Source: Halicephalobus mephisto
Lineage: Eukaryota; Nematoda; Chromadorea; Rhabditida; Panagrolaimidae
Reading direction: 5' to 3'
DNA length: 64,000 nt
Assembly (NCBI GenBank): GCA_009193035.1
Contig: SWDT01000009.1
Span: 124,001-188,000, forward strand
Shown here: positions 50,017-57,022 of the stretch, in pieces
How the letters are laid out: every line of letters begins with the position of its first letter
Position numbering within the stretch: the first letter of the stretch is position 1
Translations under genes and position numbers: made by a program
Notes under the pieces: model-generated
What the model was told of the DNA's origin: nothing
The model's input: only the letters and a program-made list of their open reading frames with translations
Databases searched by the model: none

Positions 50017-52200
50017 ATGGGTAGAAAAAATAACAAGACAGGTCCTGGGCCTCAAGCGAAGAGTCCTCAGAAGCCAAAAGAAACTACGGTGAAGAATCCT
50101 CAGATTTCAAAGGAAACAAAGCCTAAGAACTCTCCGAAGCCAAAAGAAACTCCACTGAAGAGTCCCCAGACCCCTAAAGAAACCAACTCGAAGAATTCAC
50201 AGAATGCTAAAGGAAGCCAGGCGAAAAGTCCTCAGACTCCCAAAGAAACCAAGCCGAAGAGTCCTCAGGTTTCAAAGGAAACTCCATTGAAGAGTCCTAA
50301 AACCCCGAAAGAAACCAAACCGAAGAGTCCCCAGACTCCTAAAGAAATCAAACCGAAGAGTCCCCAGACTCCCAAAGAAACCAAACCGAAGAGTCCCCAG
50401 ACTCCCAAAGAAACCAAACCGAAGAGTCCCCAGACTCCTAAAGAAACCAAGCCGAAGAGTCCCCAGACTCCCAAAGAAACCAAACCGAAGAGTCCCCAGA
50501 CTCCTAAAGAAATCAAGCCGGAGAATCTCCCGAAATCGAAAGAAACCCAGCTGAAGAGTCCATATAACTCTAAAGAAACCAAGCCAAAGAGTCCCCAAAA
50601 TTCTAAAGAAAACAAGAAACCAACACCGAAGATTGCTGTTAATTCTACTGCTGGGAAGAAAGCAGGAAAGGGGCCCACTGTTTTAAAGAAGATTATTGAC
50701 GAACAAAACCTTTCCTCTGACGAACTCGACAGTGACTTGGATCTCTACGAAGATAGTGATGATGGACTCATTTACGCCGAAGACGATGACGAATTACTGG
50801 AAGCAGAAGACGACGAGTTGATGGAAGCAGAAGACGAACTCAGTGGTGAAGAAAGTGAATTCGAATTTGAAGATTCTGAAGACGGAAGCATCGTTGACTC
50901 TGATGAAGAAGTTCCGGAACTCATTCCAGCCACTGATGAAGAAGATGAAGGAGTGAAAATCACGAAAACTGTGAGAAGTCTTGATGAAAATTCCAGCAAG
51001 AGAAAGTTCGAGTTCATCACTCAAGGCCGTGTAGCCATCAAAGCCTTGATGGAGAGTGATCTGAAAAAGTCGAAGAACAAACTATTCCAAGATAACGACC
51101 TCTACCTTCACGTCCGCTATAAACTCCCGGCTTATCCCTCCCATGTTTCCGGACAAGGTGGACGTCGTTTGATGTAAGTTTTTATTTCAAATTTACCAAA
51201 TTTAAATATTTTCTTCAGTGAGCTTCCTTTCCCAGACAGGAATCCGCAAAATTCCAGTTTGTGTTTGATTCTCCCGGATATTTACTTGTCGAAGAAGGAT
51301 AAGAAGGACCCCGATGTCGATAAACAAGCCAGAGATTGGGCTGATATCTTGAGGGAAAAGTTTGGAATAACTTCACGTGATGTTTCGAAGATCTACACCC
51401 TCAACCAGCTTCGTCGGGAGATCACAACCCAAGATCAGAAACGTAAATTGGCTTTAACTTACGATATCTTCGTAGTTGATCGTTCTGTCATCGGACCGAC
51501 TATATATCATCTGGAGAAATTTATCAAGAAGAGCGGAAGGGTTCCTTTGCCTATTTGTATCACGAAGAAAGACGTCCCGGAGCAGATCCGTCGAGCTTAT
51601 AAACTTGTCCAGTACGATCTTCGTCCTGCTATTGAAGACGTCAATATTAGAATTGGAAGTAGAACTCAATCTGCTTCACAATTGAGCGCAAATTTTACTA
51701 CGATTGCTGATGCTGTATTCAAGCATATTCCTGGAGGTGAACGTAACATCAAGACGGCTGATATTGGAGATCATGATTCAACTTCTTTACCAATTTATGT
51801 GGATTTTGGTGCAAAATGTGATGTTGGACTTTCGAAACCCAAATTTGAGAAACCTGAACCTTTGATTGAAGAAGTCGATACATTGCCTGATGGATTGAGA
51901 GTCAAATTTGATGGAAATGATTTCACAATCATCGACGAAGAAGGAAAAGAAGTGTTATATCCTTTTGATGAGTCAGAAAAAGATGCTCTCGATGATCTAA
52001 AGTTGCCTACTCGAGAGCAAATGGAAGCTGCTGACCAAAGAAAGAAGAAAGCCGAAGAGAAAAGAAAGAAGAAGGAACAAGAAAACAGAGAAAAAGCCAT
52101 TTTGAAACGTCTCAAGTACCTAAAACGAAAAAGAGAAAGAAAAATCACCGAATCCGAAGCAAAAATCAAACAACCAAAAATAGAAAAAAAGAAGAAATAA
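50017..52200 (+). CDS. Ribosomal L1 domain nucleolar protein (RSL1D1/UTP30-like) with KSPQTPKE repeats
   Basis: Exons 50017-51173 and 51219-52200 join in phase 2 to give 712 residues. The N-terminal 215 residues are a basic repeat with a 12-residue period, KETKPKSPQTPK; at least six consecutive units are nearly identical. An acidic segment (about 235-310, DDELLEAEDDELMEAEDELS) follows. The ribosomal L1 fold then runs from about residue 335 to 570 (ALMESDLKKSK; LCLILPDIYLSKKD; YDIFVVDRSVIGPTIYHLEK; VPLPICITKKD; RIGSRTQSASQLSAN). The C-terminus is a Lys, Glu and Arg-rich coiled region. The basic-acidic-L1-basic layout fits a nucleolar ribosome-biogenesis factor; precise orthology is not settled. 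AATAAA is at 52277. Confidence 0.85.
50220..50520 (+). repeat. 36-bp coding minisatellite
   Basis: Units of AAACCGAAGAGTCCCCAGAC TCCYAAAGAAACC repeat with few differences, encoding the KPKSPQTPKET period. Neighbouring units at both ends are more diverged, which points to recent unit expansion in the centre. Copy number is likely to vary between individuals. Confidence 0.9.
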
Positions 52201-52428
52201 ATTCTGGATAAACAAATCCAGATTACTGTTGCGTTAATACCCTTATTGTTGTTGTTGAATTATTAAATTTCATTTAAATAAAAATGAAATAATTAAATCT
52301 ACTAAAAATATTCCTCATCAGAGGATAAATTTATTTTTCTTTTTTGATTTCTATCAACTATGTTTTTTCTTCAATAACAGATTTCAAAAAATTCTATAAT
52401 GAAAATCCCTAACTTACTGTAGCAATAA

Positions 52429-55400
52429 TCAGGATTTCATTTCAGTTCTGATGTCATAAAAATTCTAAAAAAAATTTTTTTATTTTTTTTTTAAATTTTA
52501 AAATTTACCTTAGTTTCATAAAAAACTGAATTATTGGATTCTTGAGCATCTTTTTCAATAACTTTTTCATAAAATAATTTATCCAAATTCACTAAACGAA
52601 TAAATGAATTGATATATTTTTCTGAATTTGCTAGATCCATATTCACTCTCATTAAAACAGAAATTATTTTTGAAGCAATCATGAATGAATTTAATCCATT
52701 AATATGGGATTTTTCAAGAATTCTTTTAAAATGAAGACATAAATATGCTAAAGTATTTCTATGAGGTTTTGGTAAATCCATAATAACAGATTCAAGTTCT
52801 GAATTTTTTGCATTTTCACAAGCAGTTAGAAATTCATCTGATGACGTCTTCAAAATCACAGGTTCACGTAATTCAGATAGAAATTTCAATAAAGCTTGAG
52901 AAATAAGTTTAGCAGAATACCCTTCAAATTTCGTCAAGTTTTTAGAATATATCAAATTCAAACATAATACTCGAACAGCTTCAGGATTCCTAAAATCAAG
53001 GAATTTTAAAAATAAAAATAATTTTTAAATTCTTAAAAAGCAAAATTTTTACAATTTAAATTTAAAAACCTTAAAAATCTCAGAAAACTTCAAAAACTAA
53101 AAACCTAAATTAAGAAAATTATAAATTTTAAAAACCCAAATCAAGGAAAGTTTAAATTTTAAAAATCTAAATTAAGAAAATTTCAAAAATTAAAAACCTA
53201 CATCAAGAAAATTATAAATCTTAAAAACCCAAATTTTAAAAAATTAAATTTTAAAAATCTAAATTACGAAAACTTCAAAAATTAAAAACCTAAATTAAGA
53301 AAACTAAAAACTAATTTTAAAACTTACGCTTCATGAACATATAAATCTGTAGATTCTAACATTCCATCTAGAACAGTAACACATCGAATAATTGGATGAG
53401 GAATACGAGGTCGAGCATCGGAACAGTAATCCAGAAGTTTCAAACGACCATTGGAAGGTTTTTGAACTTCTTTGAATGGGATACAAGCCATTGTTACTTT
53501 TCTTCGGCATTTTGGATGACAAATCAATTTGCAAACTAAAATTAAATTCAAAATTTAAAATTTCAATTCAAAATTTAACGATTTTAAAAAATTGTTTTAA
53601 GTTTATAATTTTAAATTTCTTTTGAAAATATTTTAGAAATTCAAAGATTCTAAAAATCCAAAATATTTCATAAAATTTTCAAAAATGTCAGAAAATTCAA
53701 CTGATTTAAAGTATTTTTTAAAATTTAATAAATCTTATAGTAGTCTAAAATTTCGGTTTTAAATGATTAAAAAATAATCACCAGTCTCACATCGTAAAAT
53801 TCATATATAAACTTTCTACAAAATTGTCTAAACTTCAATTTTTCGGATTTTTAAAACCTAAATTAATTTGAGATTTTGATTTTTCACAATAGTTACTACA
53901 AAATCGGTCATAAAATTCATATATAAACTTTCTACAAAATTGTCTAAACTCCAATTTTTCGGATTTTCAAAATCCTAAATTAATTTGAAATTTTAATTTT
54001 CTATGATAGTCATTTTATAATCAGTAATTTGTCATAAAATTCATATATAAACTTTCTACAAAATTGTCTAAACTCCAATTTTTCGGATTTTTAAAATCCT
54101 AAATTAATTTGAAATTTCTAATTTCTCATGTTAGTTATTTCATAATCTAACGTTATTTCCTAATTAACATTTTAGAAGATAGTTTTGTACATCACAGGAC
54201 TTGGACTTAGATTTCTAAGTTTAATTTCCACATATAAAACACTAAAAAACCAAAAATTCTCCATTTAAAAAAATTTTGTTAAATAAAATCCATAAAAAAT
54301 TACCTTTACATCTTGAAGCTTCATTCCCAAACCGAAAACTTTCTTTACAAGTCATACAGGACAACTTTGTGAAAATTCTACGAATTCCAAATTGATGAGG
54401 ACGTTTTTCAACAACATCCTGATAACGTCTCACAATGTGCGGTCGTGGATGGAGATGGACGGCAGAAGTACATCTAGCAATGTCCAAATTCGCTGCCGGA
54501 GGAAGGGAGACGGATTTCCGATGGGATAAAGCCAAACCAGGCAGAGAAACCGATCTTCGAAGTTTCGATTCTTCAGAAAATCTTTGTTTTTGTCCATCGA
54601 TTGACAATTCGGATGGATTTGTGACTTCTACAATGTCTTCAGAAATCTCTCCAGCTGGTTTCTGATCAGATTCAGATTTAGTGTAAGTACTATTCTGTTC
54701 TGGAACGTCAATATTCATTTCTTCCTGATTTTCGTCATCACTGTCGATTGTGGACAAAGTCATAGAAACATCTGCTTCGTTCTTTCTTCTCCGATTCTGA
54801 ACCACATCTTTCACCATCACAGACAGCTGCATCTGACAAAGCTTCAGTCGTTCCTGAAGGACAGCGTTCGCTTCCTTCAGTTCCTCCACCTCTGCCAGAG
54901 CTGCCTTCCATTTCAGCCTAGTTTCGTCCAGCAAATTGACAAGAGCAAGACATTCTGAAAACTCCTAAATTGTATAAAAATAAAAATAAAAACCACAGAA
55001 ATTAGAATTATTACGAAATATTTAGGACGAATTTCTAGATTTTTTAGAAACTTTTGAAGTTTCAGATATCATATAGGTATTTACTTTTAAGCCTAAATTA
55101 AAAGTAAAAATTATTGAGAAATAATTTCAAAAAGAAATCCTAAATCTGGAAATTCCGAACTTTATTGATAAAATTTGTTTTTTTACAAAAGAATTTTTAA
55201 GTTCAAAGTCTGGATGAAAATATTCGAAATTTCAGAACATTCGGAAATTTAATGTAAATTTTCGAAATCATTCCAAAGTTCCTACGATATTCCAAAAATT
55301 CCCAAAAATAATCGTAAAATTCTCAAAAATATTTTAGAAGGCTTCAAAAACAAAGATATTCTATTTTTTAGAACACTTAACTAGATCCTAAAAAACACCA

Positions 55401-55794
55401 GAAACCTCTAACATCATAGAGGTCAGAAATTAGAATATTCAAAATTAAAAATTAATATATTTAAAAGTAAAAAAAGTATTTTTCAAGTTTAAAATATTAA
55501 AAATTGATATATTAAAAATCCAAAAATTGATATATTAAAAAAGTTCAAAAATTGATATATTAAAAAGTTCAAAAATTGATATATTAAAAAAGTTCAAAAA
55601 TTGGTATATTAAAAAATCCAAAAATTAATATATTAAAAAGTTCAAAAATTGATATATTAAAAAATTCAAAAATTGATATATTAAAAAAAATCCAAAACTT
55701 TACCATTCTCTAACGGTGGAAAAAGGCTTAACTGGCACAAATAACGACTGAAGGTTGCGAGAATTTCAGATTCCTTGCTACATATCGGGGCCAT
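52429..55794 (-). CDS. cyk-4: Centralspindlin RhoGAP, CYK-4/RACGAP1 homologue, lacking the arginine finger
   Basis: Partner of kinesin-6 in centralspindlin at the spindle midzone. Exons 55794-55699, 54964-54304, 53535-53328, 52989-52509 and 52464-52429 give 493 residues. An N-terminal coiled coil (about 43-90, TRLKWKAALAEVEELKEANA) precedes a Ser-rich linker. A complete C1 zinc domain (about 222-270) follows: H, SCMTC, RCKVC, ICHPKC, MAC. The RhoGAP domain (about 280-445) keeps LISQALLKFLSELREPVI and LPKPHRNTLAYLCLHF. Where GAPs have GLYRVSG this protein reads DLYVHEA, so the catalytic arginine is absent (Val319). The first donor (AAA|GTTTTG) is weak; a better GTAAAG three codons upstream breaks the frame. 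The protein is shorter than human RACGAP1 (632). Confidence 0.88.
53740..54240 (-). repeat. CATATATG-family copies in the CYK-4 intron
   Basis: On the minus strand a copy begins at about 54236 (TTATATGTGGAAATTAAAC). The part with AATTTAGGATTTTAAAAATC, GGAGTTTAGACAATTTTGTA and GAAAGTTTATATATGAATTT is repeated three times (near 54110, 53990, 53860). Confidence 0.65.
54965..55698. repeat. First intron of CYK-4: GAA/TTC-rich DNA and a 27-30-bp tandem repeat
   Basis: The first 400 bases hold TTCTAGA, GAAATTC and CAGAA words. From about 55490 to 55690 about eight units of AAAATTGATATATTAAAAAA with TTC between them form a regular array. Confidence 0.7.
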
Positions 55795-56036
55795 CCTTGG
55801 AGACTAGCTTGTGTGGAAGTAATAATCAAAGGAAAAAAAATACGTTGAACGATTAAGCATTGCCAGTTTTCAACGACTCGCTCTCCCGCAATTCTCCCAT
55901 TCGCCCTTTATTTTCGTTTCGAGACCGATTTGACGGAACAGAACCTAATGTTTCTTTATTTTTTAAAATTTTATTTTTCGTTAATTTTTTTTTCGAATTT
56001 GTTTTTTTTAAATTTTTTTAAATTTCCGTGAAAACA
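55795..56036. promoter_or_regulatory. Divergent promoter region, CYK-4 and PDCD5
   Basis: The two ATGs are 242 bases apart on opposite strands. The centre is GC-richer (AACGACTCGCTCTCCCGCAA) and the PDCD5 side is T-rich. No defined elements could be assigned. Confidence 0.45.
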
Positions 56037-57022
56037 ATGGAAAACGACGAATTGAACGCGGCTAGAGCTGGACAAATGGCCCAAATGCAGGTTTGTTTTT
56101 TGTTGTTTATTTTTCAAATTTTTTCATATATCAATTTCGAACAAAAATCACAAATTCCATTCCAGGGTGGTCATGGCAAAGGTCCAAGTGCAGAAGACAA
56201 AGCTAAAGCAGCTGAAGAACAAGAAAAAATGAAAACAAATATCCTTACTCAGGTTCGTTTTTTATTTTTTATAAAAATTATTTATTTTCTGAAATATTTC
56301 CAATGGTTGTAATTTCAATATCCGCCAGTATTTCATATATGATGCTTAACCCTGAAGGTGGATGCAAGCTCATAAAGGATATATATAGCCTTGATTCGGA
56401 AGTTCCCAGATCTGCCTGGAGGAATATGTTCAAAGCCTTGTTTACGAAGTCATAAAGTTACGAAACACCGATCACGCACTCAAGTTTCCGATCAATTTTA
56501 AATTTTCATGTCGAGACAATTTGCGGCAATCCTAATTTCTAATCTTTAAAGTAGTACGATTTCTTGAGCATCCATCGTTATTTCATATATGACCCTTAAT
56601 CCTCGAGGACGGACATGTGCTTCTAAGCCCTGTAGCCCAACTCCAGCTTCCCACACCTATCTAAGCAGGACATCCCCCAAAACATTGATAAAAACTAAAA
56701 TACAGTTACTTCGTTACCAAGTTGTTGAATTCAGAACAATCCTAATTTTCAATTTCACTATTATTTTAACTTCCAGATCCTACATCAAGACGCCATGGCT
56801 CGTTTGAGTACCTTGAGAGCTGCCAAACCGGAACGAGCACAACAAATCGAATCAATGCTCATCAACATGGCCAGAACAGGAAGAATCGGAGGCAAACTCA
56901 ACGACGAACAATTCAAAGGCCTTCTGAATCAAGTCACTGACAATCAACCAAAGAAAACAACAACTGTAAAATTCGATCGTCGACGAGCTGCTCTAGATTC
57001 CGATGACGAGGATTACGAGTAA
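56037..57022 (+). CDS. PDCD5 family DNA-binding protein (programmed cell death 5)
   Basis: Exons 56037-56090, 56166-56252 and 56778-57022 with the acceptor AG at 56775-56776 give 128 residues, the usual size (about 125); the third exon begins ATCCTACATCAAGAC (ILHQDAMARLSTLR). Seen: an N-terminal ELNAARAGQM helix, a short Gly, Glu and Lys-rich linker, the core three-helix bundle ARLSTLRAAKPERAQQIESM and RTGRIGGKLNDEQFKGLL, and a C-terminal FDRRRAALDSDDEDYE. That order is diagnostic for PDCD5/TFAR19. Roles reported for the family are in apoptosis and CCT chaperonin binding; the molecular role in nematodes is uncertain. Intron 2 contains a CATATATG-family copy. Confidence 0.95.
56320..56680 (+). 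repeat. CATATATG-family copies in PDCD5 intron 2
   Basis: Copy 1 (about 56329-56555) has TATTTCATATATGATGCTTA, CCAGATCTGCCTGGAGGAAT, AAGTTACGAAACACCGATCA and TTTTCATGTCGAGACAATTT. A second, shorter start (TATTTCATATATGACCCTTA, CCTCGAGGACGG) follows at 56580. Confidence 0.7.

Follow-up and report, generated by a model that had tools for sequence, protein, structure and literature searches.

A CYK-4 paralogue without the arginine finger in the nematode Halicephalobus mephisto, a candidate pseudo-RhoGAP

The window analyzed here is a stretch of 64,000 nucleotides from the nematode Halicephalobus mephisto (contig SWDT01000009.1, positions 124,001 to 188,000 of the forward strand). It contains a CYK-4/RACGAP1-like gene on the minus strand (55794-52429) whose RhoGAP (Rho GTPase-activating protein) domain has no arginine finger. 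Its five exons join in frame and encode 488 amino acids. The C1 domain of the predicted protein (residues 217-266) scores 30.2 bits against a Pfam cut-off of 26.5 and has all eight zinc ligands, as expected from the initial annotation, which described it as intact. The RhoGAP domain follows directly (residues 293-431; 62 bits, cut-off 24.5). Among solved structures, the GAP and C1 domains of human RACGAP1 match best by sequence. A model of the RhoGAP fold was built on P0001, a relative with 61% identity, and not on the window protein itself.

Where human RACGAP1 reads GLYRISG, the window protein reads DLYVHEA (residues 311-317), a segment that aligns without gaps and spans the junction of exons 3 and 4. 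A protein search found five relatives: P0001 from Halicephalobus sp. NKZ332, P0002 from Panagrolaimus sp. JU765, the partial ENA sequence P0003, and two canonical proteins that retain the arginine, P0004 (Plectus) and P0005 (Parastrongyloides). Two further ENA partials, P0039 and P0040, stop short of the finger site. Six of the 33 matches of a further search (P0033-P0038) were dropped as other RhoGAPs by name and E-value, and the resulting alignment has 37 rows. The finger residue is V in the window gene, I in a second gene of the same assembly (on contig C74, where the site reads DLYITDV), and I, S and I in P0001, P0002 and P0003. None of these five rows has the arginine, whereas all 30 canonical rows do. 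The canonical rows are a gene on contig C1 of the same assembly, P0004, P0005 and P0006-P0032, and they include Ascaris, filarial worms, Steinernema, Panagrellus, Panagrolaimus and an annelid. Comparison with many nematode CYK-4 sequences, which the initial annotation had proposed, thus bears out its reading of a homologue without the finger.

The reading at this site is unlikely to come from an error of sequencing, a wrongly spliced model or an overlooked exon, because related sequences also lack the finger, because the C74 gene has its finger intron in the same alignment column and phase (intron 3; column 790, phase 2), and because the 338 bases of intron 3 encode no YR in any frame. An alternative exon that restores the arginine was considered and rejected on the same absence; the C74 intron at this point is 45 bases long by its exon coordinates. 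Neither [GAS][LIVM]YR nor YR[VILA][PS]G occurs in the three minus-strand frames of 52400-55800. A nearby arginine of the window protein, R323, was considered as a compensating residue and rejected, as it is K in the C74 gene, P0001 and P0002.

The remainder of the GAP domain has also diverged. At 53 GAP positions a residue is conserved in 80% or more of the canonical rows. All four full-length finger-less proteins (the window and C74 proteins, P0001 and P0002) keep it at 21 of these positions, some of them keep it at 11, and none keeps it at the other 21. The earlier statement that the domain keeps its other conserved segments is not confirmed. The lost positions include four residues of the finger motif (G, R, P and G) and the lysine of the KxFLR motif at the RhoA interface, which is K in 29/29 canonical rows with a residue there and L in 4/4 finger-less rows. 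The equivalence of the window residue, Leu351, to K495 of C. elegans CYK-4 is taken from numbering, the C. elegans sequence being outside the alignment. Fifteen positions are fixed in the four finger-less rows yet differ from the residue conserved in at least 80% of canonical rows. Pfam RhoGAP scores are 56 bits for the C74 protein and 58 for P0002, near that of the window protein, versus 106 for the canonical copy. Two other losses were dropped as evidence: R499, since only 16/29 canonical rows have R there, and the asparagine of the NLA motif, which is present in only 15/27. Between the window and C74 genes, the ratio of nonsynonymous to synonymous differences per site (pN/pS) is lowest in C1 (0.19) and the GAP region (0.20) and higher in the linker (0.59), and unrelated codons give 0.99 to 1.13 in 20 draws. 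By this measure the C1 and GAP-fold regions are under purifying selection, and the low value for the GAP region means that its sequence is constrained despite the loss of the finger.

A search of the species' own assembly (59.9 Mb, 331 contigs) finds two relatives of the window gene, those on C1 and C74. The C1 gene encodes 649 amino acids with a long coiled-coil region, an IDYDKT box, a C1 domain and a RhoGAP domain with the finger sequence GIYRVPGS. Judged by these features it is the canonical cyk-4 of the species. The window gene is consequently ruled out as the only cyk-4, and the proposal that centralspindlin acts without GAP activity throughout this species falls because the canonical copy is present. 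A second intact cyk-4, which the initial annotation had named as refuting its proposal, is found on C1 and groups with canonical panagrolaimid CYK-4. An assembly mixed from two species was considered and is opposed by the RPB2 C-terminal family, which occurs in only three places, and by the COP9-subunit gene that adjoins canonical cyk-4, which occurs once in the assembly. The C74 gene encodes 444 amino acids that are 59% identical to the window protein over 393 residues. It has no detectable CYK-4 N-terminus, with residues 1-95 scoring no better than shuffled sequences (496/500 and 500/500 as high), and P0001 aligns in the same way, without a CYK-4 N-terminus or coiled coil. Base composition differs between the loci, although the assembly looks like that of one species: the guanine-cytosine (GC) content is 0.31 at the window locus, 0.39 at locus L016 and 0.34 at L017, the C74 gene.

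Two trees place the finger-less proteins apart from the canonical ones. The finger and lysine columns hold the trait itself, so the alignment columns of GIYRVPG together with the E and S that flank it (and a one-row insert) were removed, as was the lysine column. Tree 1 has 30 rows and leaves out P0003, P0023, P0027, P0030, P0031, P0039 and P0040; tree 2 has 27 rows and leaves out P0005, P0029 and P0032 as well. The four full-length finger-less proteins form one clade in both trees (100/100), and nine canonical panagrolaimid proteins, with the C1-contig gene among them, form another (100/100 and 99/98), where the JGI rows P0006 and P0007 are counted as canonical panagrolaimid by similarity. 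Forcing the finger-less rows together with the C1-contig gene alone is rejected in tree 2 (approximately unbiased test, p-AU 0.0004). On this evidence the window gene is a paralogue and not an orthologue of canonical CYK-4. A single duplication older than the Halicephalobus-Panagrolaimus split is supported on these trees, because Panagrolaimus JU765 has a finger-less member. Intron 1 of the window gene matches that of the canonical gene in alignment column and phase, as fits a duplication at the DNA level.

Long branches make the attachment point of the finger-less clade uncertain. It joins the long Parastrongyloides branch in tree 1 (88/79); with three long rows out, in tree 2, it falls among Steinernema and the panagrolaimids (81/92), beside the panagrolaimid canonicals at only 60/23. 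The matches listed include no JU765 protein among the canonical CYK-4s, no canonical CYK-4 of Halicephalobus NKZ332 and no finger-less copy named from Panagrolaimus ES5, P. superbus, P. davidi or Panagrellus, and these absences are weak given the limited search. Two canonical CYK-4 proteins occur in each of Panagrolaimus davidi and Panagrellus redivivus (P0010/P0012 and P0011/P0013), all with the finger arginine, and cyk-4 therefore seems to have been duplicated repeatedly in the family.

The N-terminus of the window protein is recognizably that of CYK-4. Its residues 1-95 score 120 against the first 125 residues of the canonical copy (shuffled mean 29.8; 0/500 shuffles equal), and in the assembly search residues 22-82 show 39% identity (E 2.5e-5) in the CYK-4 N-terminal comparison. 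Plectus and P0002 are also matched strongly. Over 214 residues of exon 2, the partial sequence P0039 and the window protein share 69% identity, and the block ECLALVNLLDETR at the start of the coiled coil is the same in both, which is why this start seems to be conserved too. In the linker, the window protein reads STIDSDDEN versus the canonical IDYD-K-T box, so that an ID-x-D core is left and the KT is gone; this type of box is altered in the finger-less rows that cover the region. The box is taken as a Plk1/ECT-2 docking region by position only (human Plk1 sites are described in passages of PMC2680336). Linker units of the form S[ILM][DG]FD, similar to NSIDFDSE, are a feature of the C74-type paralogue and number five in P0001, four in P0003, one in the C74 protein and none in the window protein. 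They are similar to the canonical SxIDYDKTGDS box and could represent a phospho-docking site that has been amplified.

Features of the window gene and its surroundings are collected in Table 1. All introns of the gene are GT-AG with consensus splice sites, and the donor of exon 3 is gtaag. The 44-base intron before exon 5 is a prediction; its counterpart in the C74 gene is one alignment column off (997 versus 998). Intron 2 contains three near-identical copies, seen by eye, of a stretch with catatataaactttctacaaaattgtctaaact. Exon 1 of the plus-strand neighbor has no Pfam match at E 0.01, and the second part of this gene is, we presume from inspection, a ribosomal L1-domain protein. On the 5' side of the window gene lies a plus-strand gene that we take, also by eye, to be PDCD5.

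Table 1. Coordinates of the window gene, neighboring features and related linker repeats.
Feature	Position	Strand	Content
Exon 1	55704..55794	-	Residues 1-30; start codon and N-terminal segment CSKES..., which precedes the coiled coil
Exon 2	54304..54954	-	Coiled-coil helix, residues 31-82 (~54954-54800); linker; first part of C1 (from ~54397)
Exon 3	53328..53535	-	Remaining C1; start of RhoGAP (~53401-53328), with DLYVHE at its end
Exon 4	52509..52989	-	Remaining RhoGAP fold (to ~52647) and tail
Exon 5	52429..52464	-	Short C-terminal tail, residues 478-488, and stop
Val314 codon	53336..53338	-	Arginine-finger position (R459 of C. elegans CYK-4)
Leu351 codon	52887..52889	-	Position of the conserved KxFLR lysine
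Intron 2 repeats	53800-54080		Three near-identical copies, by eye
Neighboring gene	50017-52200	+	Six exact KPKSPQTPKE units (by eye) and degenerate ones, then an acidic stretch
Neighboring gene	56037-57000	+	Presumably PDCD5, by eye
Linker repeats	P0001 residues 65-147; P0003 residues 38-96; L017 (C74 gene)		NSIDFDSE-like units

On balance, the window gene is probably a catalytically dead CYK-4 paralogue that combines a C1/pseudo-GAP docking module with the ability to join centralspindlin. Its sequence has lost the finger arginine and the GTPase-contact lysine and keeps the C1 domain and RhoGAP fold; the window copy also keeps the CYK-4 N-terminus and coiled-coil helix, and the C74 gene is a second copy of this kind without the N-terminal part. 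In the mechanism that we propose, the C1/pseudo-GAP half would serve for docking to membranes or proteins; it would promote no GTP hydrolysis and would bind Rho weakly or not at all. The protein would still dimerize, either with itself or with canonical CYK-4, and it would bind kinesin-6. The outcome would be centralspindlin with fewer or no active GAP heads. One motor among the kinesin matches of the genome (19 sequence contexts), on contig C118, looks kinesin-6-like by eye. It is the sole kinesin candidate that was compared with solved structures, and its best match is 5x3e (E 5.3e-65), which we take to be ZEN-4.

Engineered C. elegans alleles suggest what such changes would do. Passages of PMC4552957 report that the R459A GAP domain of CYK-4 has no detectable RhoA or Rac activity and retains RhoA-GTP binding, that the R459A protein over-accumulates on the membrane, and that the charge reversal K495E/R499E lowers RhoA binding. 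The window protein is expected, by analogy, to lack GAP activity and to bind Rho weakly. The same passages describe R459A as recessive, zygotic nulls that carry it as reaching adulthood and sterile, and embryos with R459A as their only CYK-4 as not completing cytokinesis. The need for the catalytic arginine differs by cell type (parts of PMC5627578). In the germline, R459A alone keeps CYK-4 from the rachis surface and bridges, and ZEN-4 is bound by a short region before the coiled coil, according to the portions of PMC6056237 that we cite.

Several points weigh against the reading of the window gene as a dead CYK-4 copy that can join centralspindlin. Its coiled coil rests on a structure model of P0002 and on a weak heptad signal at residues 31-82 (p 0.033 by a crude home-made score, which gives p 0.0035 for P0002, 0/2000 shuffles for the canonical copy and 0.15 for a linker stretch). 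Dimerization with canonical CYK-4 is putative. The C74 protein and P0001 have no coiled coil, so part of the subfamily would appear to function without CYK-4-type dimerization. Synonymous differences between the window and C74 genes are saturated (pS 0.76), and the pN/pS ratios thus average over both branches. Both trees carry long-branch warnings, and P0002 is one of the long rows. The protein could retain some GTPase binding, as R459A does in C. elegans. A GAP-dead protein could not simply replace an active one, because embryos with R459A alone fail cytokinesis.

The absence of the N-terminus from the C74 protein and P0001, both of which conserve C1 and GAP, suggests that part of the family needs only these two domains with the GAP fold dead. 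From there comes the main rival reading, put forward doubtfully, in which the paralogue acts outside centralspindlin. It would be a pseudo-GAP scaffold that stands alone, is anchored by C1 and binds a new protein partner, and its coiled coil would be a remnant or serve self-association only. The changed linker box and the fifteen positions fixed away from the canonical residues fit this scaffold as well. Against it stands the strong retention of the N-terminus in the window gene when compared with the canonical copy, Plectus and P0002, and the nearly identical coiled-coil start in P0039 is unexpected for a remnant. It is improbable that the dead GAP domain instead holds active Rho-family GTPases, shielding or recruiting them, even though the pseudo-RhoGAPs OCRL and p85 have the same fold and C. 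elegans R459A keeps RhoA-GTP binding with excess membrane accumulation (passages of PMC4552957). The contact lysine is lost in every full-length finger-less protein, reversal at K495 and R499 lowers RhoA binding in that study, and R459A by itself blocks CYK-4 at the rachis surface and bridges (portions of PMC6056237). Of the proposal in the initial annotation for a GTPase binder without GAP activity, the lack of GAP activity should hold on sequence, while the loss of the lysine makes the binding doubtful.

It is very improbable that the gene is a duplicate decaying into a pseudogene, or that its finger site reflects an error of assembly or splicing. The GC content at third codon positions is lower in the window gene (0.27 versus 0.49 in both relatives and 0.45 in exon 1 of the plus-strand neighbor at 50017), and conserved GAP positions are partly lost, as decay would predict. 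Opposed to this are an open frame of 488 codons with consensus splice sites and introns in common with the C74 gene, the purifying selection on C1 and GAP (pN/pS 0.19-0.20), the absence of the arginine from four other sequences with finger-less relatives in three further sources, and an intron without YR. The earlier view that the gene is not pseudogene-like is supported.

To return to the dead CYK-4 copy that can join centralspindlin, a more specific version of it is conceivable and is put forward tentatively. The window protein might be a natural GAP-dead subunit of panagrolaimid centralspindlin that joins kinesin-6 instead of canonical CYK-4, either as a homodimer or in a mixed dimer, and controls how many GAP heads are active. 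If so, it would perhaps do this in the germline or in the early embryo, both of which depend on CYK-4 GAP activity in C. elegans. Cell division in this species need not run without a GAP enzyme, canonical CYK-4 being present. The locus offers a natural experiment: of the two copies that arose by duplication, one retains the residues for catalysis and binding, and the other is without both yet still constrained in C1 and the GAP fold. This suggests that the C1-GAP module has a conserved use other than catalysis.

No CYK-4/RACGAP1 paralogue without the finger was found in the open-access texts searched, mostly at the level of title and abstract. Like CYK-4, RACGAP1 and RacGAP50C, the window gene has the N-terminal segment, a coiled-coil helix, the C1 zinc ligands and a RhoGAP domain right after C1, and it has intron 1 in common with canonical cyk-4 of the same genome. 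Unlike them it has neither the finger arginine nor the KxFLR lysine, its IDYDKT box is changed and its C-terminal tail is short, and it sits in a paralogous clade and not with the CYK-4 orthologues. The RhoGAP-type domains of OCRL and p85 also have no finger and bind GTPases, in proteins of unrelated architecture that did not arise from CYK-4 by duplication and are not known for a role in cytokinesis. The window protein resembles these pseudo-RhoGAPs (the p85 example being its BH domain) in having a RhoGAP fold without an active finger, and both are among the fold matches of the P0001 model. From its sequence, it would thus be a pseudo-RhoGAP by function and a paralogue of CYK-4, not CYK-4 itself. 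Compared with the engineered C. elegans alleles R459A and R459A/K495A/R499E, it differs at the same three sites by numbering (R to V, K to L and R to S). Unlike those alleles, the change here is natural and long-standing, and it is found beside a canonical copy that it does not replace.
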